Shown piece after piece: positions 3,183-63,731 of a DNA stretch of 64,000 nt. Origin of the DNA: Vibrio sp. CDRSL-10 TSBA (GTDB taxonomy: Bacteria; Pseudomonadota; Gammaproteobacteria; Enterobacterales; Vibrionaceae). The notes beneath the pieces were generated by a model. That model saw nothing but the letters and a program-made list of their open reading frames with translations. It ran no database searches and was not told where the DNA came from. Location: NCBI GenBank assembly GCA_039696685.1, contig CP155565.1:558001-622000 (forward strand), written 5' to 3'. A program made the translations under genes and the position numbers. The stretch's first letter is position 1. Each line of letters starts with the position of its first letter.

Positions 3183-4387
3183 CGTCCAACCGCGCCTGGA
3201 AAGCTCGCGCACCATGATGTGGCTGTCGCCATTTATCGCCGTCGCGATTACGCTGGCGATTTCCAGCCTGCTGTTTACCTGGCTTGATGTCAGTCCGGTT
3301 AAAGCGTTTGAAGTCTTCATTCTGATGCCGTTTTCTGACAGCTACAATCTGGGCGAAACTGCTGGTTAAAGCCACGCCGCTGATGCTGTGTGCAATTGGG
3401 CTGGCGTTATGTTATCGCGCCAATATCTGGAACATCGGTGCGGAAGGACAACTGCTGATCGGCGCTGTCGCTGCCAGCGCCGTCGCCGTTAACGCAACCG
3501 ATGAATCCGGCCCGGCCACCCTGCTTGCAGCGGTGTTGGCCGGTATGGCTGCCGGGGCATGCTGGTCTGCCATACCAACCTGGCTTAACCGCCGCTTTCA
3601 TACCAATATCATTCTGACCACCATCATGCTCAATTATATTGGTTTATACGTACTGCTGTGGGCAGTGCATGGCCCGCTGCGCGATCCGCAAGGTTTTGGT
3701 TTTCCGGAATCCGTCATGTTTGCCGATTCAGTGCTTTTGCCTGCGCTGGCTGAATCAGGCCGGGCAACGCTGGCGATTGTGGCCGCGGTGATCATCGCTG
3801 TGACTGCCGGATGGATGCTGTTTAAAACCTTACCCGGCTTTAGCCTTCGGGTGCTGGGTTCTGAACGGGCCGCCGCTCGTTACGCCGGATTTGCAGAGAA
3901 TCGTCTGGTATGGGGCGTGATGCTGTTTGCCGGCGCGCTGGCAGGTTTCGCCGGTGCCGCCGAAGTGACCGGACCAATTGGTCAGTTGATTCCTTCCGTG
4001 TCGCCCGGTTATGGCTATGCCGCGATCATTGTGGCTTATCTTGGCCGCCTCAATCCGATCGGCGTGATCCCGGCGGCCCTGTTTATGGGAGCACTTTATA
4101 TGGGCAGCGATCTGGCCCAGATTGAACTTGGCCTGCCGACAGCCGTGACCGGGCTGTTCCAGGGCACTCTGCTGTTTTGTCTGCTGGCATGCGATTTCCT
4201 GATTCATTATCGCTTCGTCCCGGCTTCATCACTGCGCAAAGCCCCTCCGCCTGCAGACAATGCAGCCTCATCCGTTAGCACAGCACAACCTGGCTACCAA
4301 GACAACGGACTTAACCAAGCAAGCGGAATTAACCAAGAGAACGAACTTAACGAAGAAAGCGGCGTTAGCCCAAAAGGAGCGGCATGA
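3175..4387 (+). CDS. BMP-type ABC importer, permease 1 (frame broken by one base)
   Basis: BPD_transp_2 family inner-membrane permease, 403 aa once one A is dropped from the run 3356-3358. That rejoins the N-terminal part (ending NLGE) to LLVKATPLMLCAIGLALCYR, then the family hallmark ANIWNIGAEGQ. Start ATG 3175 has AGGAGGTG upstream and overlaps the ATPase gene. Eight or more hydrophobic segments follow. The last 40 residues are hydrophilic and include a four-fold 18-bp repeat (separate entry) absent from typical relatives. The stop overlaps the next start as ATGA, so the operon is translationally coupled. Function as the first channel subunit is well supported; substrate is inferred from context. 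Confidence 0.88.
4304..4375 (+). repeat. Four tandem 18-bp repeats inside permease gene
   Basis: Units 4304-4321, 4322-4339, 4340-4357 and 4358-4375 are imperfect copies of a pattern like AACGGACTTAACCAAGCA. They encode alternating hydrophilic Asn/Glu/Ser-rich hexapeptides (NGLNQA, SGINQE and variants) at the C-terminal tail. Being 18 bp, copy changes keep frame. The copies have diverged, so the array is not brand new. Confidence 0.75.
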
Positions 4388-5316
4388 TGGATGCGCTATT
4401 ACTTCAATCGCTGTGCATTGCAGCATTAAAAACCGGTACACCTCTGCTAATCATCGCGCTTGGTGAACTGTTATGTGAAAAATCCGGCGTACTCAATCTC
4501 GGTCAGGAAGGCATGATGCTGATGGGCGCGATGGCGGGCTTTGCCGGTGCCTTTGTCTCCGGCAGCTTATTGGTGGGCATCATCGTCGCGATGCTGGCCG
4601 GAATGATGATGGCGTTGCTGTTTGGTGTTCTGACTCTGTCACTAAGCAGTAATCAGGTCGCGACCGGACTGGCACTCACGATCTTCGGCACAGGTTTGAG
4701 TGCGTTTCTGGGCAGCAATCTGGTCGGTTCCACCATTGACGGTTTCAAAGCGTTACCGGTTCCTTATCTGAGCGACATTCCGTTTATCGGTCCCTTGCTG
4801 TTTAACCATGACATTCTGGTATACAGCAGTTTTGCTCTGGTGGCCGGCGCTTGGTGGGTCATGCGTTATACCCGTATTGGCCTGATTATCCGCGCAGTAG
4901 GTGAAAATCCCCACTCTGCTAACGCGCTGGGTATCAAGGTGCTGAGAATACGTTACATTGTCACCTTATTTGGCGGTGCCCTGGCGGGTCTGGCTGGTGC
5001 CTATATGTCGCTGGCCTACACACCAATGTGGATGGAAAACATGACCGCAGGACGAGGCTGGATAGCGCTGGCTCTGGTGGTGTTTGCTTCCTGGCGCATC
5101 GGATACTTGGTTCTCGGTGCCTATCTGTTTGGCTTTACCTCCATCATGCACCTGATGATGCAGGGTATTGGCTTTGATATTTCGCCTAACCTGCTGGCGA
5201 TGACACCTTATGTCGCCACTATCGTGGTCATGGTGTTGCTCAGTTCCAATGAATTGCGTCAGAAACTGGCGACACCGATGAGCCTGGGTAAACCTTTTGA
5301 TCCCAAACGGCATTAA
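4384..5316 (+). CDS. BMP-type ABC importer, permease 2
   Basis: 310 aa, intact, all hydrophobic segments of the BPD_transp_2 family present. The conserved GELLCEKSGVLNLGQEGMML near residues 20-42 is the hallmark of the second permease (YufQ/NupQ type), and RAVGENPHSANALGI is the conserved cytoplasmic loop that meets the ATPase. It starts at an ATG overlapping the stop of permease 1. With 1653 and 3175 it forms the membrane part of the importer; the binding protein is encoded 308 bp downstream under its own control region. Confidence 0.92.
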   Translation: MMDALLLQSLCIAALKTGTPLLIIALGELLCEKSGVLNLGQEGMMLMGAMAGFAGAFVSGSLLVGIIVAMLAGMMMALLFGVLTLSLSSNQVATGLALTIFGTGLSAFLGSNLVGSTIDGFKALPVPYLSDIPFIGPLLFNHDILVYSSFALVAGAWWVMRYTRIGLIIRAVGENPHSANALGIKVLRIRYIVTLFGGALAGLAGAYMSLAYTPMWMENMTAGRGWIALALVVFASWRIGYLVLGAYLFGFTSIMHLMMQGIGFDISPNLLAMTPYVATIVVMVLLSSNELRQKLATPMSLGKPFDPKRH

Positions 5317-5624
5317 CTCTCAAACATAATCAGTTCTCAACCAACTAAAAACGCATCAACTTGGTGCATGAGTATGCAATAAGGCACTAATTTGAATCAT
5401 AACAGTGCAGCGTTTGGTAAAAGATAAAAATGGACCTTGCGCTGCTCTGCCTCATCACCCCTTATCGGTAAAGGGCTGAACAGAAAACGGAAAATAATTT
5501 TTCAAAATACGACCAATTGGTCAGGTTTTTGCTTTATCTCAACTTGGATGAGGCGCGCGCAGACAAACCTCGCACGTTGCACTGCGCGCCCGCATCCACA
5601 TTAAAAATGAAAACGGAGAATTTC
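5317..5624 (+). promoter_or_regulatory. Control region of the binding-protein gene
   Basis: 308 bp without a gene. It holds an NtrC-like half-site TGGTGCA at 5362-5368, a weak GG-N10-GC element at 5431-5446, the RutR-like palindrome at 5509-5524 overlapping a second GG-N10-GC element (own entry), and a GC-rich inverted repeat, GGCGCGCGCAG (5552-5562) against CTGCGCGCC (5582-5590), that would form a hairpin in the leader 35 bases before the start codon. No purine riboswitch core was recognised. Confidence 0.5.
5509..5533 (+). promoter_or_regulatory. RutR-box-like operator with overlapping sigma-54-like promoter (binding-protein gene)
   Basis: GACCAATTGGTC is a perfect 12-bp palindrome (5511-5522). 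In the frame ACGACCAATTGGTCAG it matches 11 of 14 defined bases of the RutR box, all mismatches being at the outer edges. TGGTCAGGTTTTTGCT (5518-5533) has TGG at -24, a perfect TTGCT at -12 and correct spacing, though the middle of the -24 element departs from TGGCAC. A repressor on the palindrome would block sigma-54 polymerase. Operator firm, promoter moderate. Confidence 0.55.
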
Positions 5625-6702
5625 ATGAAACTCAATCAGTGGATGACAGCAGCAGCACTTTCGGTATCTGCGCTTTTCTCAACTTCGACTCTGGCGCAGG
5701 ATCCGCTCAAAGTCGGGTTTGTCTATGTAGGGCCTATCGGTGATCACGGCTGGAGCTATGAACACGATCAGGGTCGTATCGAGATGGAAAAATACTTTGG
5801 TGACAAAGTCACGACGACCTATGTCGAAAACGTTGCTGAGGGCGCGGATGCAGAAACGCGTGATTACTCAGTTGGCTAAATCCGGCAACGAGGTCATATT
5901 TACTACCTCCTTCGGGTTTATGAACCCGACCGTCAAAGTCGCAAAACGATTTCCCAATATCACTTTTGAACACGCGACCGGCTATAAGATGAGTAAGAAC
6001 CTGGGCACTTACGCCCTGCGTACTTATGAAGGTCGTTACGTTTCCGGGGTTGCTGCCGGTATGGCGACCAAGAGCAATACGCTGGGCTACATCGCCACCT
6101 TCCCGATACCGGAAGTCATCCGCGATATCAATGCCACCTATATGGGGGCAAAAAGCGTCAATCCGGATATCCAGCTGAAAATCGTCTGGGTTAATACCTG
6201 GTACGACCCGGGCAAAGAGTCTGATGCAGCGAACGCTCTGATTGACCAGGGCGCAGATATCATTATCCAGCACACTGACAGCCCGGCGCCATTGATCGCA
6301 GCAGAGAAACGCGGCGTGATGGGGATTGGCCAGGCATCGGATATGAGCCATTTCGCTCCGAAAGCCCATATGTTTTCGGTACGTGACCACTGGGCTCCCC
6401 ACTACATTCAGGCTGTCCAAGGTGTGATGGATAACAACTGGCAGGCACAGGACTACTGGGGCGGCCTGAAAGAGGATTTATTGCAGATTGTCTCTATCAA
6501 TCCTAATCTTCCAGAAGAGATCAAAAAAGCGATTGAGAGCACCGAGCAGAAGATCAAATCCGGAGAAATCGTTCCGTTTACCGGCCCGATGAAGGACAAC
6601 CAGGGCAAAGAGGTAATCGCAGCGGGTCATTCGTTGACTGACAAAGAACTGGCCGCAGTCAACTGGTACGTTGAAGGTATCGACGCCAAGATTCCAAACT
6701 AA
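5625..6702 (+). CDS. BMP-family substrate-binding protein of the ABC importer (frame broken by one base)
   Basis: Periplasmic binding protein of the Med/BMP family (PF02608 type), 358 aa when one A is removed from 5854-5856; this rejoins ENVAEGADAE to RVITQLAKSG, the family's usual wording. Residues 1-24 are a Sec signal peptide ending STLA. Family motifs KVGFVYVGPIGDHGW and IFTTSFGFMNP are clear. Unlike many Gram-positive relatives it has no lipobox. Start ATG 5625 follows ACGGAGAA. It feeds the permeases encoded just upstream. Substrate is likely a purine nucleoside, base or urate; the sequence alone cannot say which. Confidence 0.9.
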
Positions 6703-6709
6703 TTCAACT

Positions 6710-6753
6710 CAGGCTCGCGTTTCCGGTGGAAGTCGGTGCGCGAGCTGTTTTTT
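6710..6753 (+). terminator. Rho-independent terminator after binding-protein gene
   Basis: CAGGCTCGCG pairs with CGCGAGCTG (one bulged G) across a GC-rich loop, followed by TTTTTT at 6748-6753. It sits 8 bases after the stop at 6702 and separates the importer from the xdh operon. Confidence 0.75.
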
Positions 6754-6763
6754 GGTTATTAAG

Positions 6764-6779
6764 TTGACCATTTGGACAA
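6764..6779 (+). promoter_or_regulatory. RutR-box-like operator upstream of xdhA
   Basis: TTGACCATTTGGACAA matches TTGACCAnnTGGTCAA at 13 of 14 defined positions, the best match in the window. It lies 24-39 bases before the xdhA start codon. A GG-N10-GC element (TGGACAAGTTTTAGCA, 6773-6788) overlaps it, but transcription from it would start next to the ATG and lose the ribosome site, so here I favour an operator only. TTGACC could double as a -35 box; no good -10 was seen. Confidence 0.6.
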
Positions 6780-6802
6780 GTTTTAGCAACACAGAGGAAG
6801 TT

Positions 6803-8216
6803 ATGTTAGAGCTCATGATTAACAGCGACGTAGTCAAAGTAGCGTCGGCACAAGCCGACACCATGCTGCTCAACTACCTGCGCGAAGAAAAGCAAATGAC
6901 AGGCTCTAAAGAGGGCTGCGCCAGCGGTGATTGCGGCGCTTGCACCGTGGTGATGGTGGATCTCGATGATGATCAGAGAATGCGCTATCGTCAGATCAAC
7001 GCCTGTATTACCCCCATTCATGCGCTGCACGGTAAACAAATCATCACCGTGGAGCACCTTAAACAACACGACCAACTGCATCCGGTTCAGCAAATGGTCG
7101 TCGATCGTCACGGCTCACAATGCGGTTTTTGTACCCCGGGGATCGTGATGTCGCTGTATGCGCTCTCTAAACAGGAGCAGCCGCCGCACAATCCGAGTGA
7201 TTTTCTCGCCGGCAACCTGTGCCGCTGTACCGGATACGGCCCGCTGATTGATGCCGCCAACGCCATCGCTGAGAGTAGCATTGACGATCCGCTCAGTCAC
7301 AACGACGCTTCGGTAAGAAACCTGGCTCCATTCGGTCGAGCCAAGCAGCGAAGCCGATTACGCCCGCCCGCAAAACCGTACCGAGCTGGCTACAGCTATC
7401 GCCGCCATGCCGGACGCCAAACTGATTGCCGGCGGAACCGACCTGGCGCTGGAGGTGACTCAGCAACATCATCCGCTTGAACAACTGATCGATCTGTCAC
7501 ACGTTGATGACCTGCTCACCATCACCCCGACTGAGACCGGCTGGCGTATCGGCGCTGCGGTGCCGATGAATCAGGTGCATGCATTTATCAAACAACACTA
7601 TCCGAGCGCTGACGAGGTGATTGAACGTCTCGGCAGCCTGACGATACGGAACCGTGCCACTTTAGGCGGCAGCCTGGGTCACGCGTCGCCAATTGGTGAT
7701 ATCGCCCCGCTGCTGATCAGCCTGCATGGCGAAATTGAAGTCGATGATGGCAAGCACAAAGCCCGCTTTGCACCAGATGCGTACATCACCGGTTATCGGC
7801 AGACCGCATTGAAAGCCAACCAATGGATCAGCGCCATTCACCTGCCCCACATGGCCGATAACGAGCGTCATGCGATCTACAAAATCAGTAAACGCTATGA
7901 AGACGATATCGCCACCGTCACGCTGGGTCTGAACATGACCTTTGATGAGCAGCAAACCGTGACCCGCTGCATCATTTCCGCCGGCGGCGTTGCTGCCAAA
8001 TCGGTACGCCTGAGTGAGCTGGAAGCGCTGTTCATTGGTCACCCGCTTACCCAGTCAGTAGTGAAGAAGGCCCAGAACAAAGTGCCTGAGGTGATTCAGC
8101 CACTCAGCGACGTGCGCGGCAGCGCGGCTTATCGGGTAAAACTGGTACAAAACCTGCTGCAACGTTTTTATCTCGAGTCCCGACATATCGAAACAAGGCT
8201 GGTGCAAGATGCGTAA
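6803..8216 (+). CDS. xdhA: Xanthine dehydrogenase small subunit, 2Fe-2S plus FAD domains (frame broken by one base)
   Basis: 470 aa after removing one A from 7318-7320. Residues 1-160 carry both iron-sulfur clusters: plant-type C39-x4-C44-x2-C47 (GCASGDCGAC) and the second cluster CGFCTPG with NLCRCTGYG. From about 190 the FAD-binding domain follows (LIAGGTDLALEV, TLGGSLGHASPIGD). It oxidises hypoxanthine and xanthine to urate with the molybdenum subunit XdhB, passing electrons to NAD+ or another acceptor in the cytoplasm. ATG 6803 follows GAGGAAG. Its stop overlaps the xdhB start (ATGCGTAA). First gene of an eight-gene purine oxidation operon under a RutR-like box. Confidence 0.93.
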
Positions 8217-10711
8217 ATTAACTTCTGTTACCACCGACCACACGGCCAGTCCGTCCGTGAAAAGCGATCCGTCTGTGAAAGGCAAGCCGCTGGCGCCGGT
8301 CAGTCAACCGGTTAAAGTCAGCCAACCGGTTAAACAGGTTGGCCAGGATGCGGCTGCCAGCCATTCGGTGGTCGGTCACTCATACAAACACGAAAGCGCA
8401 AAGAAACAAGTGGCTGGTGAAGCCCTGTTCGTCGACGACTACGTCACACCGCGTGACTGCTTACATGCTGCCGTGGTGACCAGCACCATCGCCAAGGGTA
8501 AAGTAAAACAGCTGGATCTCTCCGCCGTCTCAGCCGCTCCGGGTGTGGTTAAGGTCTTGACCGATGAGAGCATTCCCGGAGAGAAAGACATCGGCACGAT
8601 TTTAAAAGGCGATCCGTTGCTGACCATTCATAACGAAGTGCGTTATTTCGGCCAGCCACTGGCCTTGATACTGGCCACCAGTCATGAACTGGCTTGGCGA
8701 GCGGCCCGTTTAGCGCAAATAGAATACGAAAAAAGTGACACCGTCACCCTAACCCATACTCAGGCATGTCAGAACCCACCGCTGTTACCGACTCACCAGA
8801 TGGGTCAGGTGATCGCCAACGATGTGTTTACTCAGGCGCCGGTGCATCTGAGTGGCGACATTCATGTCGGCGGGCAGGAACACTTCTATCTCGAAGGTCA
8901 GGTCAGTCTGGCTGAACTGACCGAAGACGGAGGAATTTTCCTGCGCACTTCAACCCAGAACCCGAGTGAAGTACAGAAGCTGATTGCCGAAGTGCTTGCC
9001 ATCGATTTTAACCGCGTCACGATCGATATGCGCCGCATGGGCGGCGGTTTTGGTGGCAAAGAGAGCCAGGCGGCGCAATGGGCTTGTCTGGCCGCGCTGG
9101 GCGCACATCATACCAAACGCGCCGTCAAAATACGTCTGCCGCGCAGCATAGATATGACCGCTACCGGTAAACGCCATCCGTTTTATAACCGCTACCAATT
9201 AGCAGCAGATGCGGAAGGCAAATTAATCGCCGCCAATATGGAAGTGAATGGTCTGTGCGGCCACTCCGCCGATCTTTCGGATGCGATTGTCGACCGGGCG
9301 ATGTTTCACGCCGATAATGCCTACGCCCTTGGTAAGGCTTGTGTCATTGGCCATCGCCTGCAAACCGACATGGTTTCTCACACCGCTTTCCGCGGCTTTG
9401 GCGGCCCGCAAGGCATGATGGTGGTTGAAAAAGCGTTGCAAGAGCTTTCGCTCAAGGTCGGTAAAGACGCACTCGATGTACGCTATACCAACCTTTACAG
9501 TGCCGCTCAGCACACTACACCTTACGGCATGGAGGTTGAGCAGCATGCCGAGATGCGAGACATCATGCAGCAGCTGGAAAGTAGCAGTGACTACCGCGCG
9601 CGCCGAGCGGCGATTACCCAGTGGAACCAGACCCATCCGGTGCTCAAGAAAGGCCTGGCGCTGACGCCGGTCAAATTTGGTATCTCGTTTACTGCAACGC
9701 ACCTCAACCAGGCGGGTGCACTGATCCATGTTTACACCGACGGCACGCTGCAGGTTTCTCACGGCGGAACCGAAATGGGCCAAGGCCTGCATACCAAGGT
9801 TCAGCAAATTGTTGCGCAGAGCTTCGGCATTGACATCGACAAGGTACTGGTTACCTCCACCCGCACCGATAAAGTGCCGAACACCTCGCCGACCGCCGCT
9901 TCATCCGGCGCTGATCTGAACGGGATGGCCGCGCACAATGCAGCGATGATCATCAGACAGCGTCTGATCGAGTTTGCCTGTCAGCATTTTCAGGTCGATG
10001 GCGCCGACATCATCGATGGCAAACTAAGTGGTATCGAATCATCCCCAAGATATGAACATCCGCTCTCCTGGCCAGAGCTGATTCAGATGGCATATCTCAA
10101 CCGCGTGTCTCTGTCTGCGACCGGCTTTTACCAAACGCCGAAAATTGGCTACGACCGCAAAACCGCCTCCGGCCGGCCATTTTTCTATTTCGCGCTCGGT
10201 GCCTCCTGCTCTGAAGTGACCATCGATACCTTAAGCGGTGAAATGCGCGTTGATCGCGTCGATATCCTGCACGATGTCGGTAACAGCCTTAACCCGGCTA
10301 TCGATCGCGGTCAGATTGAAGGCGCCTTTATTCAGGGCCTCGGCTGGCTGACCACAGAAGAAACTGGTCTGGGCTAACGATGGCCGTCTGCTTAGCAACA
10401 GCCCGATGAATTACAAGATCCCGACCATAGGTGATTACCCGCAACAGATGCACATCGATCTGTATGACAAAGCGAACCCGGAGCACAGCATTTATCGCTC
10501 CAAAGCCGTCGGTGAACCGCCGTTTATGCATGCCATCAGTGTGTGGTGCGCGGTTTACGATGCGGTAGCGTCACTGAGCGGCTATCGCTGCGCGCCGCTG
10601 CTGCACGCGCCGGCAACCGGTGAAGCCATTCTCAATGCCTGTGAGCATCAGCTGCAGTGGCTGAATGAACACAGCGCTGCCAAGGAGACTGCCGATGTCA
10701 CCAACCAATAA
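8209..10711 (+). CDS. xdhB: Xanthine dehydrogenase large, molybdopterin-binding subunit (frame broken by one base)
   Basis: 833 aa after dropping one A from 10361-10363, which restores WLTTEELVWANDGRLLS. Molybdopterin motifs GQEHFYLEGQ, GGGFGGKE, FRGFGGPQG and GTEMGQGLHTK are present; the active-site glutamate region near the C-terminus is covered by IDRGQIEGAFIQGLGW. About 50 residues precede the usual family start (VGHSYKHESAKKQVAGEALF) and contain two doubled 18-bp units (8251-8286, 8299-8334), giving Lys/Pro/Val repeats of no known role. Overlaps xdhA by 8 bases and xdhC by 17. Confidence 0.93.
8251..8334 (+). repeat. Two doubled 18-bp units in the 5' end of xdhB
   Basis: CCGTCCGTGAAAAGCGAT (8251-8268) is followed by a variant copy at 8269-8286, and GTCAGTCAACCGGTTAAA (8299-8316) by a copy with one mismatch at 8317-8334. 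They lengthen the N-terminal extension without breaking frame and look recent. Confidence 0.8.
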
Positions 10712-15619: not shown

Positions 15620-16858
15620 TCAGGCAAAGCTTTTCAGCATCTCGATAAAACAGTGTAAGCCCACAGCAACATCAGACTGAGTCACCTGCTCACGCGGGTT
15701 GTGGCTGATACCCTTCTCACAGCGGATAAACAGCATGCCAACATCGGTCATGGTCGCCATCGCCAGCGCATCATGGCCCGCACCACTTGGCAAAAAGCGC
15801 GGTTTCGTCTGCGTGACGCTTTCCACCACTGACGCCCACTTTTGCTGCAGTGATTCATGACACGGCACTGCTGCCGCTTCATAGATGTTCTGCGAACTGA
15901 ATTTCAGGCCACGCTTATCGGCGATCTTATTCAGTAACGCCAGAAGCTGGGTGGTACACGCTTCGAGAGTGTCCTGCGATAAACTGCGGATATCAATGGT
16001 AAAACGGGTTTCACCCGGAATCACATTGACCGCGCCCGGCAGTACTTCACACTTACCGACCGTCGCTACAATGCCCTTGTCGGCGGCGAATTTTTCGATG
16101 TAAGTGATCATTTCAGCAGTACCGCACAGCGCGTCGTTACGCAGATTGACCGGAACCGTACCGGCATGACCGGCCATCCCTTTGACACCACACTGAAAAC
16201 GTTTCGCCCCGGCAATACCGGTAACAACACCGACCGCGAGATCTTCCGCTTCCAGCACCGGGCCCTGCTCAATATGCGCTTCGAGATAAGCGAGCGTATC
16301 TTCAGCGCGGCGCGCATCGCTGCCTGCTTGTTCCGGATCCAGACCAAATGCTCGCATCGCTTCAGCCATACTGATGCCGTCAGCATCTTTCACATCCAGC
16401 CAGGCCGGATTAAAACAGCCCGCCACACCACTTGAACCAATCAGCGTGGTATTAAAACGGGTGCCTTCTTCATCAGCGAAAGCAACCACATCAATATGAA
16501 ACGGAAACTCCTGCTCAGATAAAGCCGCCAGGGCTTCAATCGCCATGATGACCCCCAGGTTGCCATCATACTTACCGGCATTACGGACCGTATCACTGTG
16601 CGAGCCGAGAATCAGAGTTGGCTGAGTCGGGTTCGCCGACACTTTACGTCCCCACTGGTTACCGACACTGTCTTCCCAGGTTTCCAGACCGGCTTTTTGC
16701 ATCCACACAGCCAGTTGATCATGGGCCAGACGGTGCTCAGGCGTGAGGTAAGCCCGGGTCACTTCCCCGGGCGTGTCGGTAAACGAGCCAAGCACATCGG
16801 CTTGTTCCATCAAGCGCTTTGCACGATCTTCCATAGTGATTCCATTCATCGTAGCCAT
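15620..16858 (-). CDS. hpxK: Allantoate amidohydrolase, M20 family
   Basis: 412 aa, intact. Hydrolyses allantoate to (S)-ureidoglycine with release of CO2 and ammonia, the step feeding the aminotransferase encoded upstream. M20 metal-binding motifs are in place: LGSHSDTVRNAGKYDGNLGV, the catalytic DEEGTRF, EAHIEQGPVLE, and PSGAGHDALAM near the C-terminus. The related N-carbamoyl amino acid and ureidoglycolate amidohydrolases look alike; neighbours favour allantoate (AllC/HpxK). ATG 16858 follows AAGGAG. Last gene of the minus-strand unit, 22 bp after the aminotransferase gene. Confidence 0.88.
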   Translation of the reverse strand: MATMNGITMEDRAKRLMEQADVLGSFTDTPGEVTRAYLTPEHRLAHDQLAVWMQKAGLETWEDSVGNQWGRKVSANPTQPTLILGSHSDTVRNAGKYDGNLGVIMAIEALAALSEQEFPFHIDVVAFADEEGTRFNTTLIGSSGVAGCFNPAWLDVKDADGISMAEAMRAFGLDPEQAGSDARRAEDTLAYLEAHIEQGPVLEAEDLAVGVVTGIAGAKRFQCGVKGMAGHAGTVPVNLRNDALCGTAEMITYIEKFAADKGIVATVGKCEVLPGAVNVIPGETRFTIDIRSLSQDTLEACTTQLLALLNKIADKRGLKFSSQNIYEAAAVPCHESLQQKWASVVESVTQTKPRFLPSGAGHDALAMATMTDVGMLFIRCEKGISHNPREQVTQSDVAVGLHCFIEMLKSFA

Positions 16859-16880: not shown

Positions 16881-18114
16881 TTAACCAAAGTATTCCATTG
16901 CTGCAACCACTGCCTGTCCAGGTACGATTGCTGCTTTGTGCTTGATAAGAACCGCTTCCAGAGCAGCCAGAGTAGACAGCACGCATTCCTGACGCGCGTT
17001 GTAACCCATGGTACCGATACGCCAGATCTTACCGTGCAGCGGACCAAACGAGGTACCGATCTCGATACCGAAGCGGTTCAGCAGTTCCATACGGACTGCA
17101 TCACCGTTGACGCTGGCCGGGATATAAACACCGACGACGTTATTCATCTTGTAAGCCTGGTTACCAAACAGTTCCAGACCCATCGCACGCAGACCAACCG
17201 CCAGTGCATCACCGGCTTGCTTATGACGAGCAACCACATTATCCACCCCTTCTTCCAGGAAGATACGTGCACATTCACGTGCTGCATACAGCATGCTGGT
17301 GGCTTCGGTGTGGTGGTTAAGACGTTCAGGCCCCCAGTAATCCATGATCATCGCCAGATCAAAGTAGTTAGACTGGATCATCGCATCTTCACCCTGCGTG
17401 TGGTGATCGGCGCGAATACCGGCTTCTACGTGTTTACGACGGTTGATCACTTCTGCACAGCGATCGCTCAGCGTGATTGGCGCAGAAACCTGAAGGGCCA
17501 CCCAGACATTTCTGCAGACCGGCAGAGACCGCATCCAGATGCCATTCGTCCACTTTGAGATCGTTACCTGCGATTGATGCCGTGGCGTCACAGTAGAACA
17601 GTACACCATAACGCTGACAGATTTCGCCCATCTCAGCCAGAGGCTGGTTCATTGTGGTTGAGGTATCTCCCTGTACCGTTGCCAGCATTTTAGGCTGGAA
17701 CGATTTAATCGCCGCTTCCACTTTATCCGCCGGACACACTTCACCCCATTCGATATCGATGGTTTTCACCACTGCACCGACACGCTGCGCGATTTCGCAC
17801 AGCAGGTGGCCAAAACGGCCAATCACAGGGATCAGGACTTTGTCACCAGGTTGCAGAACGGAAACCAGTACCGCTTCAATACCGGAACGCGCTGTACCAT
17901 CCACCAGCATGGTTTGCTTATTTTCAGTCTGGAATACACCACGGTACAGTGACTGTACCTGGTTCATATAACCGGTCATCACCGGATCATACTGACCAAT
18001 CAGTGACTGAGAGATCGCCTGATGAACTCGTGGGTAAGCATTAATCGGACCCGGGCCCATCAACAGACGTTGTGGCGGGTTCAGGGTTTCAAATAGTTCG
18101 TTTTGGGCTTTCAT
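16881..18114 (-). CDS. hpxJ: (S)-ureidoglycine-glyoxylate aminotransferase (frame broken by one base)
   Basis: 410 aa after removing one A from 17486-17488, which joins QKCLGGPSG to SAPITLSDRCAEVI. A class V PLP aminotransferase of the PucG type: LLMGPGPINAYPRV near the N-terminus, DGTARSGIEAVL, and the PLP lysine in LQKCLGGPSG. Known PucG/HpxJ enzymes move the amino group of ureidoglycine to glyoxylate, making oxalurate and glycine. Start ATG 18114 has TTGGAGA upstream; a longer start at 18144 would lack a ribosome site. It overlaps the region of the HpxW stop, so the genes are coupled. Confidence 0.9.
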
Positions 18115-18115
18115 C

Positions 18116-19681
18116 TCATTCTCCAAGTATACTGCGTCCATCACTACGAGGATCGCTGGTTGCGCACGCTTTTCCTTCGCTATTCAATACGATAGCGCCA
18201 GCATGTCCCATTAATTCGTTCACATCGGCCACGTAAGTAACATCGTGTCCGCGTTGCATCAGTTGCTCGCCGTATGCGTCATACAGCGAACGTTCAAGTC
18301 GTAAGTTGTTGGTGCTGTTACCCCAGGTACGTCCCAGCAGCCAGCGCGGCTTCGCCACCGCATCAGCCAGGGTGTCGCCCTGATAATGGTAACGGCTGAA
18401 CAGGCAAGCCTGTGTCTGTGGCTGGCCTTCTCCGCCCATGGTGCCGTAACTCATGCGGCTGCCATCATTAAGCTCGGCATACGCCGGGTTAAGGGTGTGG
18501 AACGGTTTTTTGCCCGCAGCCAGTACGTTGTGATGACTTGCATCGAGCGAGAAACTCTTGCCGCGACAATTCCACAAAATACCGGTCTCAGGCAGAAACA
18601 AACCGGAGCCGAACTCCCAGTACACACTCTGGATAAAGCTCACCATGGTGCCGTACTGATCCGAAGCGCCCATCCAGATAGTGTCACCCGGCTTCGCCTG
18701 ATGTGGCCACGGCAGCGCTTTTTGCAGTGACACATTGGCAACACATTCATCAATCACAGATTCAGTCAGCCACTCCTGCAGCGGCTGAGTCAGGTTCTCT
18801 TCATCGCACACTTCACGGTCACGGATGATGAAAGCCTGTTTGGTGGCTTCAACCAGCAGGTGGATGTGGTCAATTTCACTTTCCGCCTGCGCTGCCAGAC
18901 GATCATAAATCGCCAGAATGAGCAGTGATGCCACGCCCTGCGTCGGCGCACCAAAGTTATACAAACGTCCTTTCGATGTTTGTACGCTGAGCGGTGCCAG
19001 CACGCGCGCCTGATGAGCATGAAAATCTTCCAGACACAACGGGCTGCCGGCCTGTTGCAGCTCTTTCGCTGCCGATTCGGCAATCTCACCGCGGTAGAAA
19101 TCATCCAGGCCAGACTCGGCAAGACGGGTCAGGGTGTTAGCCAGCGCTTCGTTCACCAGCGTATCGCCCACCTGCAGTGTTTTACCCTGTTTAAGGAAAC
19201 GCTCGGCAAACGCTTGTAAAGAAGCCAGGCGCTCGTAAGTTTTTTCACTGGCATTGACCAGACTTTGTGTCACTTCAATACCGGAACGCGCAGCGTCAAT
19301 CGCCGGTTGCAACAGTTGGATCAGCGGCAGATTGGTGGCATCCATTTCCAGCGCTTTTTGCCAGGCTGCAACCGTACCGGCCATGGTAATTGAGGCATCA
19401 CCACCCGCTTCCGGCAGTTCACTGCCTTTGGCACGGAATGCGTCCACGTCGATATTGAGCGCTGCAGCGCCGCAGCCGTCGATAGCAACCGGAGTCTGGC
19501 CTTTCTTAGCAATCAGCCAGAAGCTGTCACCGCCAATACCATTCATGTGCGGGTACTGCACAGAAATCATCGCTGCCGCCGCCACCATGGCTTCACTGGC
19601 GGTACCGCCTGCATCGAGAATTTGCTGGCCTACCTGGGCAGCCTTATAGTGAGGGGCAGTAAACGCCGTTTGGTGCTTCAT
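18116..19681 (-). CDS. hpxW: Gamma-glutamyltransferase-family protein, probable oxamate amidohydrolase HpxW
   Basis: 521 aa, intact. GGT-fold, self-processing N-terminal-nucleophile family. The usual processing threonine motif is read here as GDTIWMGASDQYGTMVS (about residues 340-356); GGEGQPQTQACL and NSEGKACATSDPRSDGRSIL are the late family signatures. There is no signal peptide, unlike periplasmic GGTs. In Klebsiella the hpx relative HpxW hydrolyses oxamate to oxalate and ammonia; the aminotransferase next door leads toward oxalurate and oxamate, which supports the same role here. Substrate is inferred from family and context. Overlaps the amidase gene by four bases. Confidence 0.82.
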   Translation of the reverse strand: MKHQTAFTAPHYKAAQVGQQILDAGGTASEAMVAAAAMISVQYPHMNGIGGDSFWLIAKKGQTPVAIDGCGAAALNIDVDAFRAKGSELPEAGGDASITMAGTVAAWQKALEMDATNLPLIQLLQPAIDAARSGIEVTQSLVNASEKTYERLASLQAFAERFLKQGKTLQVGDTLVNEALANTLTRLAESGLDDFYRGEIAESAAKELQQAGSPLCLEDFHAHQARVLAPLSVQTSKGRLYNFGAPTQGVASLLILAIYDRLAAQAESEIDHIHLLVEATKQAFIIRDREVCDEENLTQPLQEWLTESVIDECVANVSLQKALPWPHQAKPGDTIWMGASDQYGTMVSFIQSVYWEFGSGLFLPETGILWNCRGKSFSLDASHHNVLAAGKKPFHTLNPAYAELNDGSRMSYGTMGGEGQPQTQACLFSRYHYQGDTLADAVAKPRWLLGRTWGNSTNNLRLERSLYDAYGEQLMQRGHDVTYVADVNELMGHAGAIVLNSEGKACATSDPRSDGRSILGE

Positions 19682-27580: not shown

Positions 27581-27602
27581 AGTATAACTTCCTCGCACTT
27601 AA

Positions 27603-30695: not shown

Positions 30696-30703
30696 GAAAT
30701 TAG

Positions 30704-39860: not shown

Positions 39861-39886
39861 GATTTGGATGCTAAACAATCAGGAAC

Positions 39887-41808: not shown

Positions 41809-41882
41809 GCCTTTTCTGTTAGCGAAAACCGTACTCCCTGCACACAAACTGAGCGCTTTGAAAGTCAACTGGCTGACAACAA

Positions 41883-46486: not shown

Positions 46487-46515
46487 CATTCCAACCTGTA
46501 TGTTATCCGCTAATT

Positions 46516-46690
46516 TTAGTCTGATCGCGGCAGCAAACTGCGATTTTCTCCGACGATCTGCAAAATGACATTAACCAGTTCCTGAGCCGCTTTAGAAAGT
46601 GGTCGGTTTCTGCGCCACCATCAGGCCGATATCACGATACAGCCGTTCCTTAATTGGTATCAGGCACACATTGGGGAAACAATGGCAAAA
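46516..46690 (-). pseudogene. Remnant: C-terminal 58 residues of a LysR-family regulator
   Basis: Once extra bases at 46607-46609 and 46677-46679 are dropped, the minus strand reads LLPLFPNVCLIPIKERLYRD and on to AQELVNVILQIVGENRSLLP with a TAA stop at 46516-46518. This is the typical last part of a LysR effector domain. The DNA-binding domain and most of the effector domain are absent: homology stops near 46690, where the racemase fragment on the other strand begins. Confidence 0.65.
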
Positions 46691-47138
46691 GGACATTGAT
46701 CTGCTCGTAGTCAGCTGCGCCGCAGATCCCGGAGTAGCAGCCCTGCGCAGCGCACTGTCGATTCCGGTCATGGGCGCTGGCGAATCTTGCTGTCATTTGG
46801 CCCGTCAACATGGTGATGTTATCGGAATTCTGGGCATCGAACCTGAACAACCTGCGGCTTTTAGCCGGGCATTGCGAGACTGCAAGTTGATTTACCGGCG
46901 TCCGGACAAGGTGGACTGTACGCACGATATTCATACAGCCGAGGGCAAGGCATCGATCATCGCTGCCGCTCTCGAATGTGAGCGTCTCGGCGCCCAAGTG
47001 ATTGCCCTTGCCTGTACCGGAATGGCCACTACCGATGTCGCTGGGTTGCTGGCGCCCTACACTGATTTACCGGTGATAAATCCCGTGCTGGCCGTCGCAC
47101 AGCTTATTAAGCAACGCGATGAAGACAAAAGGATTTAG
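46690..47138 (+). pseudogene. Remnant: Asp/Glu/hydantoin racemase lacking its N-terminus
   Basis: About 149 residues from KDIDLLVVSCAADPGVAALR to the natural C-terminus. Both halves of the family fold are normally present (about 230 aa); here the first 60-80 residues, including the start codon, are gone. The first catalytic Cys (SCAADPG) and the second (LACTGM) remain. No in-frame start with a ribosome site exists. The family is that of HpxA; function before the loss is unknown. A terminator follows. Confidence 0.7.
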
Positions 47139-47142
47139 GTAT

Positions 47143-47176
47143 AAAACACCAGTTTCAGGCTGGTGTTTTGCTTTTC
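47143..47176 (+). terminator. Terminator after racemase remnant
   Basis: AAAACACCAG pairs with CTGGTGTTTT across TTTCAGG, then GCTTTT. Suggests that the now broken gene was once a transcribed unit end. Confidence 0.8.
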
Positions 47177-47341
47177 AATAACATTCACCGACCTAACACC
47201 TTTAAATCATTACTAAATCTCAAATCGACATTTTGTTGTCATAAGTTCGAATTCCTCGATTTGACTAGGAAAATCTGTTGTTTCTTTGCTAGCTTATTTA
47301 GTAACGAGACAAGGCTGTAACTCAACTGGATAAGAGTCAAC

Positions 47342-48961
47342 GTGGAACAACAGAACACACATGACAACGGATTTGAAACCGTATTCCGGTACTCCAAAGA
47401 TGGTCTGGCCCTTTTCAAAGACGGTGTTTTTGTAGATTGTAATCAATCCATGCTCGAGTTGGTTGGCTTACAGGAAAAAGAACAGTTTATTGGCCTGACT
47501 CCATTCGACTTTTCGCCTAAGTACCAATTTGATGGTCGCAACTCGGAAGAGAAAGGCATGGAATACATCAACCGCTGCTACGATGAAGGCAGTGTCCGCT
47601 TTGAGTGGATACACCAAAAATTCAACGGGGAGCCATTCTGGTGTGAAGTAATCATCACCACTATGATCCTGGACGGCGATGTGGTGGTACATACCAACTG
47701 GCGCAATATTAGTGAGAAGAAAGACCTCGAATTAAAACTTGCCGAACAGAAAGAAATCTTTGAGACCCTGTTTAACGAGTCCATGGATGGACTGTCCATT
47801 TTTGATGGTCATCAGTACATCGACTGCAACAAAGCGTTTTTGAACTTATTCGGATTCACCCACAAAGATCAGGTCATGGGGTTACATCCTATCAACCTTT
47901 CACCGGAGTTGCAGCCAGACGGAAGAACTTCAAGAGATTCGGTTCGTAAGGTGTTGCAGGATTCTTTAGGCAGAGGCAGTACCCGCTTTGAATGGGTGCA
48001 CCAGAAAGTCGACGGCACTAAGTTTTGGGCAGAAGTGATTCTGACCAAGGTGAAATTAAACGGCGTCTTTTCAATCTACGCGGCCATTAGGGATATTTCT
48101 GAAAAGAAACAGTTAGAGCTGGAACTGTATGAACGTAACGCAGAATTAGACAGAACCAATCAGGACCTGGAGAAAATGCTTGATCATCTGAAACAAACTC
48201 AGGACCAGTTGGTTGAGTCTGAAAAAATGGCCAGCCTTGGCTCACTGGTTGCTGGCGTAGCTCACGAAATCAATACCCCGGTCGGTGTGGGATTGATGGG
48301 AATCACTCATCTGATGGAAGAGAATGAAGCGATACGTAAGCGCTATCAAAACGGTGAACTCAGCGAAGAAGTGTTCGAAGATTACCTCAGCAACACTACC
48401 GACTTGTCGAAAATTGTACTCAAAAATCTCGACCGGACTGCACATCTGGTGCGCGGTTTTAAACAGATCGCTGTCGATCAAGCCAGTGAAGAAGAGCGGG
48501 CCATTAACCTCAAAGAGTACATAGAAGAAATCATTTTCAGTCTGGGTTCAGTGACACGTAAAGCCAATGCGAATATCGAGGTTGATTGCCCGCCAGACTA
48601 CCATGTCATCACCAACCCGGGACATTTATCACAGGTTGTCACCAACCTGATCGTCAATTCCATTACGCACGGTTTTCAAGACAAGAAAGGCGGTAAAATT
48701 AACATCAACATACGTGAAAAAAGCGCCAAGCAGTTTACGATGATTTACAAGGACGATGGCAAGGGGATCAGCAAAAGTAATCTTACCAAGATATTTGATC
48801 CTTTCTTTACCACCAATCGCGCCAATGGCGGCAGCGGCTTAGGCCTGAATGTGACTTATAATATCGTCAAAAACACCTTTCATGGCTCCATTACTTGTCG
48901 CAGTCAGGAAAATGAAGGCGTCGAATTCACGCTAAACCTGAAAGTAAAAGAAAGAGTGTAA
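47342..48961 (+). CDS. PAS-PAS sensor histidine kinase
   Basis: 539 aa, intact. Two related PAS domains (about residues 10-125 and 132-252; each with a FEW(I/V)HQK segment), a coiled coil (255-305), a dimerisation/phosphoacceptor helix with His in SLVAGVAHEINTPVG (about 307), and a HATPase domain (N box SITHGFQD, G1 DDGKGIS, G2 GGSGLGLNV). No transmembrane segment, so it senses a cytoplasmic signal. The start GTG 47342 is the only one that precedes PAS1. No receiver domain or response regulator follows on the same strand; the HD-GYP regulator converges from the other side. Confidence 0.88.
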   Translation: MEQQNTHDNGFETVFRYSKDGLALFKDGVFVDCNQSMLELVGLQEKEQFIGLTPFDFSPKYQFDGRNSEEKGMEYINRCYDEGSVRFEWIHQKFNGEPFWCEVIITTMILDGDVVVHTNWRNISEKKDLELKLAEQKEIFETLFNESMDGLSIFDGHQYIDCNKAFLNLFGFTHKDQVMGLHPINLSPELQPDGRTSRDSVRKVLQDSLGRGSTRFEWVHQKVDGTKFWAEVILTKVKLNGVFSIYAAIRDISEKKQLELELYERNAELDRTNQDLEKMLDHLKQTQDQLVESEKMASLGSLVAGVAHEINTPVGVGLMGITHLMEENEAIRKRYQNGELSEEVFEDYLSNTTDLSKIVLKNLDRTAHLVRGFKQIAVDQASEEERAINLKEYIEEIIFSLGSVTRKANANIEVDCPPDYHVITNPGHLSQVVTNLIVNSITHGFQDKKGGKININIREKSAKQFTMIYKDDGKGISKSNLTKIFDPFFTTNRANGGSGLGLNVTYNIVKNTFHGSITCRSQENEGVEFTLNLKVKERV

Positions 48962-49011
48962 GCGTTAATATCACGCATTAAGTTCGATTGCAGCTCAACA
49001 CTGGCACAGAT

Positions 49012-49041
49012 GAAAAATGGCGTATTTAAATCAATACGCCA
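49012..49041 (-). terminator. Terminator of the HD-GYP gene
   Basis: On the minus strand GGCGTATT pairs with AATACGCC across GATTTA, followed by ATTTTTC. It sits in the convergent gap with the histidine kinase gene. Confidence 0.7.
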
Positions 49042-49079
49042 CTCTCTGCTCGATAATGCCCGGCCAATCTCTCTGCGCA

Positions 49080-50631
49080 CTAATCAGGATAGATATCACG
49101 CAGAGCCATAATACTGGCAAAGTGTTCAATGGCCAGATCACAAATCTGCGGGTCAAAGTGACGACCGCGCTCTTGCTTCAGCAGTTCAAGAATCTTATCC
49201 GCACTCCACGGCTCCTTATAAGAGCGACGGGCGGCAAGTGCGTCAATCACATCGGCAATCGCCATCAATCGCCCTTCGACCGGAATTTCCCGGCCTTTTA
49301 AGCCCGACGGATAACCAGAACCATCCCATTTTTCATGATGATAAAGCGCAATCCGCGCGCCCATTTGCGGCAATGCCCGTTTGGATTTACACAGCAGGTC
49401 ATAACCAACCTGGGCATGGGTTTTCATCACTTCCCATTCATCTGCATCCAGTTTACCGGGCTTATGTAGTATACGTTTCTGGTACCGCAATCTTGCCGAT
49501 ATCATGCATTGGCGTCGCGTGTTTAATCAGTTGCACGAAGTTTTCATCCAGTCGCAAACGCTGGGCCAAAAACTCACAAATCAGAGAAACCCTGCGTACA
49601 TGTGAACCGGTCTCCTTGCTGCGCATCTCAATGGCGTCACCCAAAATGTACATCAGCTCTTGCTGGGTGCGTTCAATATCTTCCCGACGAGTAAGGTTCT
49701 CAAAAATGATGGATACCTTGGTCAGTAAGACGTTGAGTAAACGCAGCGTCATTGGAGAAACTGGTACTGAATACGTTATCAGGGTCGAGCTCTCACTGAT
49801 TTCCGAAAGCTGCGTGAAATTGCAAAAGTGTCCGATGTCGACCTGATTTGCCTTGTGGCTTAACGTCTTGTCTAAATATTCACTGACCTGAGGCGAGAAA
49901 ATATCGTGGTCAAAACCGCTCTCCATTTTAAATTGCTGCCCATCAAACGACAGCAGGATCTGTTCCCGATTACCTAACGCGTTTATCTGCTGATATTTCA
50001 GGTAAAAACCAACGTTGTCTTGCCCTAGTAAATTCTGAGCTTCCTTCCGCACCTGCTCACTGAATCCTTCGCTGTTCGAGGCTTGTAGTACCCGGGTTGT
50101 TGCGCTGACGACATCTTCCAGCCCACGATGGCCCTGCTCAACTTCGAGAATATCGCGATAAGAACGAATCGCAGAATAGATGGTGGTTTTGAGACGAGTA
50201 GAATTAAGCTCAGTTTTACTTTTATAATCGTTGATGTCGTAATCACGAATCACATCTTCTTCCGGTGCCTCACCCGGTTGTCCGGTGCGTAACACTAGAC
50301 GAGTGGACGTATTACGTTCACGAATCCATTTTACTAACTCCAGACCAGCATGATTATTTTCCATCACCACATCGACCAGTGCGAGTGCAATGTCTGAATG
50401 CTGCTCAAAAAGAAGTTTGGCTTCTTCTGCTGAATGGGCTTTTAAAAACTGCAGAGGACGACTGTCTACCAGAACACGTTTTAGCACCATCTCAGACACA
50501 GTGATCACATCATCTTCGTCATCAATCAGGGCAACTTTCCAGGGAAAAAGAGTCTCTTCCTGATTGACCTTAACGGTATCAATCTTTGCAGTTTGTGCAG
50601 CAGCTTTCTTTGTAAACAATGGGTTTGGCAT
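49080..50631 (-). CDS. Response regulator with DUF3369 and HD-GYP domains (frame broken by one base)
   Basis: 516 aa after removing one base from 49476-49478 (KIAVPERILHKPGKLDADEW). Receiver domain at about 30-150 (ALIDDEDDV, phosphoacceptor in IALALVDVVMEN), a middle DUF3369-type domain, and an HD-GYP domain with HDIGK (about 374) and YHHEKWDGSGYPSGLKG (about 428). HD-GYP proteins hydrolyse cyclic di-GMP; the metal ligands look complete, so it is probably active. It is convergent with the kinase at 47342, a candidate partner. Confidence 0.9.
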
Positions 50632-55783: not shown

Positions 55784-57395
55784 ATGCAACCTTTACCCGT
55801 TTTGCCTGACGACTATTATCTGACGAACTTTCACAAGCTGACCTCACACGCATTGGAGTGGTATACCGATTTACTCCAGCCTGGTGAGCTAAAATGGTGT
55901 CATGATTTTCACCGGCTGTCTCATGATGCGCAGTGTCTGCTGGTTCGCCTGCTGTCACGCAAAGGGCATTGGTTTCGCAGCGATAAACTCAACTATGCGG
56001 AAATCACTGACCAGACACATGCACTGGATGAACTTGCCCGCTCAGGTTTTATCAGCCTCAATCCTGAGGTAGATGCCGTGGCAGTCGCCCGGGAACTTCT
56101 CACTAAAGCGGAAATTGTGGCGCTCTATCCACGGCTGGGCAGGTCATTACGCAAGCCGCAGCTGATCGAAGCGTTGAAGACAGAGCCGATCGAGCATGTG
56201 CCGAATCTGAGCTTTGACATTATCTATCTCAATCAAGGTGACATCATTGAGCTGTTGTTGATCTTGTTTTTCGCTAATACGCGACAAACCTTCTCGCAAT
56301 TTGTCCTTGATGACCTGGGTTTAAATAATTTCGAGCATTACCCGCTGAGTAAAGAAACGTCGCTTCTTTCAAACCCGTCAGCAGGTAGACCACCTGTTCG
56401 CTTTGAGCCGTATCCAGGCTCATTATGATGAACACCCCAAGCCCGATGAAGCGATGTTAGATAAGCTATTGTCTCAACTTCCTGAGCCTGGTGAGCATGC
56501 TTATATCGAGCGGCGCAGACAGCACCAGTTGAACCAGATCGCCCGCGACTATGAACGTCAGCAATGTCTGGATAAAGCACTCACCATTTACCAGCAAACC
56601 GAAGTGATTCCGTCACGTGAACGTCAGGCTCGTATCTATGAAAAGCTTGAGCAAGCGCAACACATGCGTGACATTGTTGAAGCCATGTTTCAACAACCAC
56701 TCAATTACTCTGAGTATGAAGTCGCTCAAACACTGCAAAAACGCCTGCTGCGCCTCGAAGGCCATAAAGTGGCGCGGGAAAGTAAACCTGCCTACCCTAC
56801 CCGCCACTTGCAACTCGACCTGTCACAGCAACGGGTCGAATTAGCGGTCAAACAACAATTAGAGAGTGAAGGTTATCAGGTTTATTATCTCGAGAACCAG
56901 TTTCTGAATACCCTGTTCGGGCTCACATTCTGGGACGCGATATTTGCTCCGGTAGAGGGCGCTTTCATCAACCGTTATCAATATCGCCCGCTAGATCTCT
57001 ATCACAGTGATTTTGCCAGCAAACGCAAGCTCTGGATAGAACAGGCAATCACCCGTCTGCGAAATGAAGGCGTCATGCCATTGTGGGAGCTTTGGCAAAA
57101 TAAATTCTCGCTGGCTAACCCATTTGTGTTTTGGGCCGGATGGGATAAGACCTTGTTTGAGCTTACGGAGCAGTGTTTTGCACCTGACATCCTGGTCGGG
57201 TTATTCGAGATAATGCTCAGTGATTTAAAACTCTATCGCAATGGCATGCCCGACCTGATTGCCTTTAAAGAAGGTCAGTTCGAATGGATTGAAGTGAAAG
57301 GCCCGGGCGACAAATTGCAGGACAATCAATACCGCTGGATGGCCCGGTTTGAGCAGCTCACAGTGCCGTTTTCTGTCTGCTACGTAAATCACTAA
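55784..57395 (+). CDS. FAN1-like VRR-NUC nuclease (frame broken by one base)
   Basis: 536 aa after removing one A from 56355-56357 (YPLSKERRFFQTRQQVDHLF). The C-terminal VRR-NUC domain has the PD-(D/E)xK pattern: GMPDLIAF then EWIEVKGPGDKLQDNQYRWM. The long helical N-terminal region and total length fit bacterial FAN1 (about 550 aa), a structure-specific 5' flap nuclease acting on interstrand crosslinks. Single gene. ATG 55784 chosen as first in-frame start before the conserved region; ribosome site is weak. Confidence 0.85.
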
Positions 57396-62058: not shown

Positions 62059-62068
62059 TTTGTTCGAT
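62059..62068 (+). promoter_or_regulatory. Possible GlpR half-site upstream of glpD
   Basis: TTTGTTCGAT matches the E. coli GlpR half-site WATGTTCGWT in nine of ten bases. The second half is not evident, so binding is uncertain. Position, about 115 bases before glpD, is suitable. Confidence 0.3.
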
Positions 62069-62182
62069 CCAGATCAAAACTCTTTATTGTCAGGCTAGTA
62101 TTCATTACAGAGCATGCTTTGCTAGCGATAAAGGTTAAAAAGTCATCGCAGTCGTCACGTAACGTACATGGAGAGCACATTG

Positions 62183-63731
62183 ATGGAACCTATCCCGGGC
62201 TCAGCTCCTCAATCCCATAATAAGGTCCTCGATCTCATCGTAGTCGGAGGCGGTATTAATGGTGCAGGTATCGCTGCCGACGCTGCGGGGCGCGGACTGA
62301 AAGTGGGTCTTTACGATGCGCAGGATTTTGCTGGCGCAACGTCATCAGCCAGTTCAAAACTGATTCACGGCGGTCTGCGTTATCTTGAACAGTATGAGTT
62401 TAGCTTAGTGAGTGAAGCCCTTACCGAGCGTGAAATTCTTTTAAAAAAAGCACCGCATCTCATTAAAGCGATGCGCCTGCGCTTACCTTACCGGCCCTCT
62501 CTCCGCCCTTCCTGGTTACTCCGTGCCGGGCTGTTTTTATACGACAGCCTCAGCCGCCGCAGCTCTCTGCCAGGCAGCCATAAAGTGCGTTTACCGGCAG
62601 GTACGGTGACCAAACCGGAACTCACAACCGGATTTGAATATTCCGACTGCTGGGCGGACGATGCGCGTCTGGTACTGGCCAATGTCATGCAAGCCAAAGA
62701 AATGGGCAGTGAAGTGATCAACTATTGCCGGGTCGTCAGTGCAAAACGTAACGGCACCATATGGGAAGTTGAACTGTTTGATGAACGTCATCAGCGTTCA
62801 TTTAACCGTGAGTGCCGGGTCTTGGTAAATGCTACTGGCCCTTGGGTACGCTGCTTTTTTCATGATCACCTGCATCTCAGCTCCCCTTATGGTATCCGAC
62901 TGGTAAAAGGGTCGCATATTATTGTGCCCAAGATTCACTCTGAACCCTACGCCTACGTGCTGCAAAATCACGATAAACGACTGGTTGTCGTAGTCCCATA
63001 TCTCGACAAGTATTCGATGATTGGCACGACTGACGTCGAATACCAGGGCGATCCGCGTCAGGTCAAGATCTCCGACGATGAGAAACAGTACCTCATCGAC
63101 GTTGTGAACCAGCACTTTGTTAAAAACATCTGTAAAAACGATATCATTCATGAATTCAGCGGTGTTCGTCCCCTGCTGGATGATGAGGCTGTCACACCGC
63201 AACGCGTCACCCGTGACTACACCCTGGCATTGGATAACAAGAAACCACCAGGCCCCGCTCTTATCTGTTTTTGGTGGCAAGCTGACCACTTACCGTAAAC
63301 TGGCTGAAATCGCGATGCATCAGCTTCAACCGTGTTTCCCGCACATGAAGCCGGACTGGACCAGCCAGGCACCATTACCGGGCGGAGAAGAGTTCAATTT
63401 CCATCGCTTGCTGAGAGAATGCAAACAACGCTATCCGTTTATCGGTGAGAGTTTACTGGAACGTTGGCTTAACTGTTACGGCAGCCGTATCCGCACTTTA
63501 CTGGCCGGAGTCTGTCAGCCGGAAGATCTCGGTCAGGCTTTCAGCCCGTCTCTGTATCAGATAGAAGTCGATTATCTCGCTGAGCATGAATGGGTGTTCA
63601 GTGCACAAGATCTTTTCTGGCGCCGAACCAAGCTCGGTTTAGATCATGATGAACAAACCATTGAGCTGGTTGAACGTTACCTGAAAAAGCGTCGTCATCG
63701 GTTAAGAACCAATCTCAAGGCAGTCAGTTAA
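62183..63731 (+). CDS. glpD: Aerobic glycerol-3-phosphate dehydrogenase (frame broken by one base)
   Basis: 515 aa after removing one A from 63242-63244, which restores DNKNHQAPLLSVFGGKLTTYRKLAE. FAD-binding motif DLIVVGGGINGAGIAADAAGRGLKVGL near the N-terminus, SSKLIHGGLRYLEQYEF, and GTTDVEYQGDP, all standard. Oxidises glycerol-3-phosphate to dihydroxyacetone phosphate and reduces ubiquinone at the inner membrane. I chose ATG 62183 (GGAGAG seven bases upstream) over ATG 62168, which lies within that ribosome site. Confidence 0.93.

Follow-up and report, generated by a model that had tools for sequence, protein, structure and literature searches.

Split genes and an extra base in the window

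The stretch of DNA analysed here (the window, 64,000 nucleotides) represents positions 558001 to 622000 of contig C1 (CP155565.1) of Vibrio sp. CDRSL-10 TSBA, the genome of which comprises 4.90 Mb in two contigs. Placement in Vibrio is reflected in the xanthine permease encoded in the window, the closest relatives of which among named loci come from V. furnissii, Vibrio sp. J1-1, V. mytili and V. xiamenensis. A first-pass annotation, made from the letters alone, had listed 25 sites between positions 3356 and 63244, on both strands, at which a gene is broken by one surplus base that turns GAAC into GAAAC. These sites, the genes that they split and the DNA-modifying Dnd system of the strain are the subject of this report.

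Direct reading of the letters agrees that all 25 sites are GAAAC (15) or GTTTC (10) on the forward strand, and the earlier observation of uniform GAAC to GAAAC changes is thus confirmed. The base before GAAAC had been said never to be T; it is T in 0 of the 25 sites, whereas 190 of the 499 intact GAAC/GTTC sites of the window have T there (p=1.5e-5). With 25 sites altered and 499 intact, the altered share of GAAC-type sites is 4.8% (25/524), which is a lower bound limited by the sites that break a frame and by what was miscalled.

The surplus base itself is evident from comparison with relatives. Alignment of the window by blastn with eight relative loci reached 10 listed sites and fourteen more loci reached 2 further ones, the remaining 13 of 25 being uncovered by relatives, and the window carries the extra base at 10 of 10 and 2 of 2 covered sites, respectively. 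Messy multi-gap alignments apart, the net change at a covered site is the same in every covering relative. The eight relatives gave 37 net frame-changing alignment clusters, 19 at listed sites and 18 elsewhere. According to the list of open reading frames (ORFs), 17 of the latter fall close to ORF ends, in the gaps separating ORFs or at the tRNA, and the sole off-site cluster inside an ORF, at 11785, is seen in one relative only. For the sites from 39816 to 49476, support comes from the frame model described below, where the model saw them. No plasmid records resembling the segment 1653–6702 of the window were found.

A frame-tracking model, trained on long ORFs and including a frame-shift penalty with no knowledge of words built in, replaced sole reliance on the listed sites, so that the motif had to emerge unaided. 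In the window, it reported 16 changes (14 insertion-type and 2 deletion-type), and 13 of the 14 insertion-type changes are within 30 bases of a listed site; the remaining one and both deletion-type changes are near ORF ends. The model misses sites close to gene ends and detected 13 of the 25 listed sites. Altogether, 18 of 25 sites are backed by at least one method, alignment or frame model, and the sites outside the reach of both are 32379, 39816, 42501, 44980, 46607, 46677 and 49476.

The model was extended to a sample of 744 kb consisting of the window and 34 stretches of 20 kb, in which it found 138 insertion-type and 17 deletion-type frame changes. GAAAC or GTTTC occurs within 30 bases of 122 of the 138 insertions versus 3 of the 17 deletions; the share of coding positions expected to lie so close is 15% (calculated on a 344-kb subset). 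The top 5-mer at insertion-type changes is GAAAC, present at 116 of 138; among background coding points, the figure is 690 of 5747 (Fisher p=4e-80, uncorrected for the number of words tried). AAGGA is found in 6 of the 12 insertion-type changes having no motif within 40 bases, and is read as ribosome-binding sites at gene junctions. Many other types of insertion or deletion (indel) in the assembly had been named as a finding that would contradict the first-pass annotation. With 122 of 138 insertions at the motif and few deletions, the sampled assembly carries essentially one kind of frame-breaking error.

These data bear on the possibility that homopolymers were simply miscalled in a long-read assembly left unpolished; this would involve no modification and would place the extra base in an A/T run, as is the case here. 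However, the original run is just two bases long, it is GAAAC with its overlapping words, and not longer runs, that stands out, deletion-type changes are few, and the base preceding G has a strong effect. This explanation is very improbable, and is refuted already once the excess of the motif is accepted.

Coding regions affected by the extra base

The xanthine dehydrogenase small-subunit region (6671–8216, forward strand) consists of two overlapping frames, 6671–7480 and 7407–8216, the second of which matches just the later part of the family. One coding region likewise occupies two overlapping frames, with a listed site in the overlap, at 16881–18144 on the reverse strand (16881–17609 and 17434–18144) and at 36326–38066 on the forward strand (36326–37180 and 37095–38066). 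Two further regions each fall into two frames, one at 26140–27598 on the reverse strand (26140–26766 and 26720–27598), with a listed site at the overlap, and the other at 55784–57395 on the forward strand (55784–56428 and 56403–57395), with a listed site near it. Purine-related genes are located at 6671–10377, 15620–16858 and 30703–32175 in the window; the set includes xanthine dehydrogenase subunits, the xanthine permease and a hydantoinase/carbamoylase-type amidohydrolase close to allantoate amidohydrolase.

Elsewhere in this genome, rpoB is in two pieces with GAAAC at the junction. Among 219 Vibrio genomes in which rpoB is matched, 210 have one match and nine have two, namely this genome and eight others, the eight all being assemblies of ten or more contigs. 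The dndD and dptH genes of the Dnd system are likewise each divided between two frames, and GAAAC or GTTTC words occur around the junctions. The first-pass annotation had argued that a true mutational process would hit essential genes, and the split of rpoB at GAAAC gives substance to that argument, making real mutations hardly credible. Real insertions, arising for example by slippage at GAAC sites that are fragile through sulfur or for other reasons, would leave many genes truly broken. The bases do stand in the assembly, and modification sites can act as mutation hot spots. However, a split rpoB should be lethal, dndD and dptH are split too, and slippage would yield insertions and deletions alike, whereas 122 insertion-type and 3 deletion-type changes were found near the motif in the 744 kb. 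An origin by real mutation is therefore highly unlikely.

Programmed ribosomal frameshifting at a slippery word would account for a single conserved word at the sites. As the first-pass annotation had maintained in setting translational recoding aside, the word is found on either strand of genes; in addition, relatives lack the extra base and the affected genes are unrelated. The probability of this explanation is negligible.

The dnd-dpt cluster and the neighbours of altered sites

GAAC/GTTC is the phosphorothioate word (GpsAAC/GpsTTC) of Escherichia coli B7A and Salmonella Cerro 87, according to the available text of PMC9069010. Hence, dndC was sought, and it was found. The dnd-dpt cluster lies outside the window, at about 1,196,000–1,211,300 of contig C2. 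One strand carries dptF, dptG and dptH, followed by an ORF that matches no NCBIfam family and a gene for a DGQHR protein, and dndB, dndC, dndD and dndE face them on the opposite strand; the unassigned ORF and the DGQHR gene thus stand between the dpt and the dnd genes. The four dnd genes and three dpt genes were assigned by family matches. The facing dnd/dpt layout is likewise annotated in E. coli SE11 and B7A. Identity to the B7A proteins is 66% for DndB, 67% for DndC (452-residue part), 53 and 58% for the two pieces of DndD and 64% for DndE, and 41, 42 and 45% for DptF, DptG and DptH (longer piece), respectively. Two solved structures of DndE, chains 4lrv and 5wtu, are matched by the DndE of this strain, the former presumably originating from B7A. 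As dndD and dptH are split by the inserted base (the GAAAC scar), automatic defence-system annotation may call both broken. In E. coli dnd regions (L238, L240 and L241), the DGQHR gene beside dndE varies in annotated length (8122–8967 or 8122–8877), and the short ORF adjoining it is labelled ParB-like or DndB-like.

The published share of modified sites is under 20%; for Cerro 87, 12% was obtained by EcoWI-seq (PMC9521924) and 3.9–4.4% by nanopore sequencing (PMC9069010). According to PMC9521924, the bases over-represented at phosphorothioated Salmonella sites are C at position -2, A or C at -1, T or G at +1 and G at +2. The neighbours of altered sites were counted at 111 unambiguous sites of 122 in this genome (11 ambiguous dropped) and at 41 of 46 sites (5 dropped) in G061, a second dnd-positive Vibrio assembly in which GAAAC insertions leave the same signature. 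At -1, altered sites of this genome have A in 52% and T in 4%, as compared with 20% and 39% of all GAAC; A at +1 falls to 11% from 31%, and the share of G at +2 is 49% instead of 34%. In G061, the corresponding values for altered versus all GAAC sites are 56% and 24% for A at -1, 0% and 38% for T at -1, 12% and 33% for A at +1, and 39% and 26% for G at +2. The pattern M-GAAC-K is enriched among the listed sites of the window (13/25 versus 92/499, p=3e-4), in this genome outside the window (45/98 versus 930/4613, p=1.6e-8) and in G061 (27/41 versus 693/3248, p=1.5e-9).

The neighbours of altered sites thus largely match those of published phosphorothioated Salmonella sites. This is the strongest single argument for the involvement of sulfur, since the published preference came from enzyme cutting and not from single-molecule base calling. 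The system resembles those of E. coli B7A and Salmonella enterica Cerro 87 in having dndBCDE facing dptFGH, a GAAC core, a small altered share, and matching flanking positions at which A is preferred or disfavoured. It differs in that the core motif is known here only through the assembly errors and the sulfur is a proposed one, and in that C at -1 and C at -2, preferred in Cerro 87, are weak or missing in part of the data from this genome and G061.

The same findings bear on a conventional DNA methyltransferase that would methylate a base in GAAC and so cause reads to be miscalled. Methylation-caused, motif-locked consensus errors are known in nanopore assemblies (PMC10687267). In the window, the altered share of GAAC sites is about 5%, whereas methyltransferases as a rule modify almost every one of their sites; the low share is compatible with one insofar as miscalling need not reach each modified site. 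However, the neighbours agree with the preferences published for phosphorothioation, and the genome encodes a suitable Dnd system; hence, a methyltransferase is an unlikely cause.

Phosphorothioate as the probable cause and its wider meaning

The split genes are best explained as sequencing mistakes at GAAC sites bearing phosphorothioate made by the Dnd system of the strain, with a probability of about 0.88. In the living genome, the altered places would read GAAC. DndBCDE, with DptFGH as restriction partner, would swap a backbone oxygen for sulfur to give GpsAAC/GpsTTC in a minor fraction of the GAAC sites, with certain neighbours preferred. Single-molecule reads would be called with one surplus base in the A/T run at sulfur sites, frequently enough for the miscall to become fixed in the consensus. 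The outcome would be false +1 frameshifts throughout the genome, the positions of which partly map phosphorothioate sites; provided that the window is representative, its 25 per 64 kb would amount to roughly 1,900 in the 4.9 Mb of the genome. The reads were more likely produced on a nanopore platform, which is favoured because phosphorothioate disturbs the nanopore signal, with PacBio being possible. The first-pass annotation had suggested a systematic read or consensus error at a modified GAAC, and this part gives the best fit to the motif-locked errors and the split rpoB. Its proposal of a modified base and a methyltransferase motif is refined, on the basis of the dnd cluster and the flank preference, to probable Dnd sulfur in the DNA backbone.

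A dndC gene above the family cut-off is present in 29 of 227 Vibrio genomes and in 22 of 394 in the order sample, and the frame model was run on 27 dnd-positive genomes. The scar was found in two, this genome and G061, which is assembled in two contigs and represents another species within the genome collection. In 520 kb of G061, there are 53 insertion-type changes, 46 of them near GAAAC, and 11 deletion-type changes, one of them near it; the top 5-mer is again GAAAC (p=5e-29). DndB of G061 is 85% identical to that of the present strain and the pieces of DndC are 82 and 88% identical, its own dndC being broken with GTTTC at the junction.

The dnd-positive genomes G203, G212, G168, G234 and G130 were scar-negative in 80–120 kb each, and 20 more, at 40 kb each, showed 0 or 1 insertion-type changes near the motif. 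In calibration, 40 kb of this genome gave 5–8 near-motif insertions and each of three such samples of G061 gave 3, so that weak scarring is possible in those 20 genomes. G121, G036 and G007, which have no dndC above the cut-off (G121 has one weak match), were also scar-negative, with 2 insertion-type changes (1 near the motif) and 5 deletion-type changes in 80 kb of G121. G203, G121 and G036 are listed with 4–5% contamination and are in two or three contigs, like this genome and G061. Despite the similar contamination listing, the GAAAC signature is absent from the 80–120 kb of each. The GAAAC/GAAC ratio was considered as a simple diagnostic, being 0.375 in this genome, 0.400 in G061 and 0.25–0.35 in eight other genomes; it was rejected, as the range among 20 further dnd-positive genomes (0.12–0.46) overlaps. 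In seven E. coli dnd-positive regions (regions only, not whole genomes), the dnd and dpt genes are not flagged as broken. RefSeq may leave out badly frameshifted assemblies, and for both reasons this null result says little.

Several points weigh against phosphorothioate as the cause. The scar is missing from 25 of the 27 dnd-positive genomes tested with the frame model, which requires an added assumption, such as correction of those assemblies, use of another platform or a different Dnd motif. In G061, rpoB is intact. The 12-mer GTAAGAACCTGG is common to an intact copy at 5993–6004 and an altered one, with three A, at 7313–7325, both on the forward strand; the first-pass annotation placed the former correctly and started the latter at 7309 instead of 7313. 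Not every published preference is reproduced: in this genome, C at -1 is not enriched (23% versus 23%), and G at -1 (22% versus 18%) and C at +1 (27% versus 21%) are not avoided. The listed sites of the window show no enrichment of C at -2 (7/25) or G at +2 (10/25), and neither reaches significance in G061 (p=0.09 and p=0.08, respectively). Furthermore, we infer the sulfur in the DNA, the origin of the extra base in reading and the platform, and the available text of PMC9069010 does not give insertions as an error type.

The rRNA operons add a milder objection. Two GAAC sites in the 16S gene are intact in 11 of 11 copies each. One operon (L027, 8001–13700) contains 53 GAAC/GTTC and 16 GAAAC/GTTTC words, and upon comparison with other copies and relatives, none of the 25 commonest indels listed is an insertion located at a GAAAC word. 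As about two to three scars would be expected per operon at 5%, this is mildly against uniform scarring, and not decisive.

Read errors caused by modification are already known. The nanopore ELIGOS signature likewise consists of errors at GAAC/GTTC in a dnd-positive strain, which drop strongly upon deletion of dndC (available text of PMC9069010). That study, however, compared read errors with amplified DNA, whereas here an insertion is fixed in a deposited consensus; its available text mentions neither insertions nor assemblies. In the Listeria Modpolish case, motif-locked consensus errors were similarly tied to the modification system of a lineage and were removed by whole-genome amplification. 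Those errors were mainly mismatches at GCAGC and GCTGG, in contrast to the one-base insertions at GAAC, and phosphorothioate goes unmentioned in the available text (PMC10687267). No report of phosphorothioate-caused insertions fixed in assemblies was found in the literature searched, most subscription papers being outside its coverage.

Public assemblies of some dnd-positive bacteria probably hold a readable phosphorothioate map in the form of false +1 insertions at GAAC. If so, letters alone, with no raw reads, would reveal which core motif is marked, which flanks are preferred and what share of sites is occupied at the least, as in the two Vibrio genomes considered here. Motif-locked indels also offer an inexpensive check for faulty assemblies, and a search of assemblies for frameshifts tied to one motif could expose the specificity of other, unmapped DNA modifications. 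Annotation would take the extrapolated false frameshifts for broken genes, rpoB and parts of the probable causative system included. For Vibrio, the scar would provide a natural map of likely phosphorothioate sites, the neighbours of which resemble those of Salmonella sites measured otherwise.

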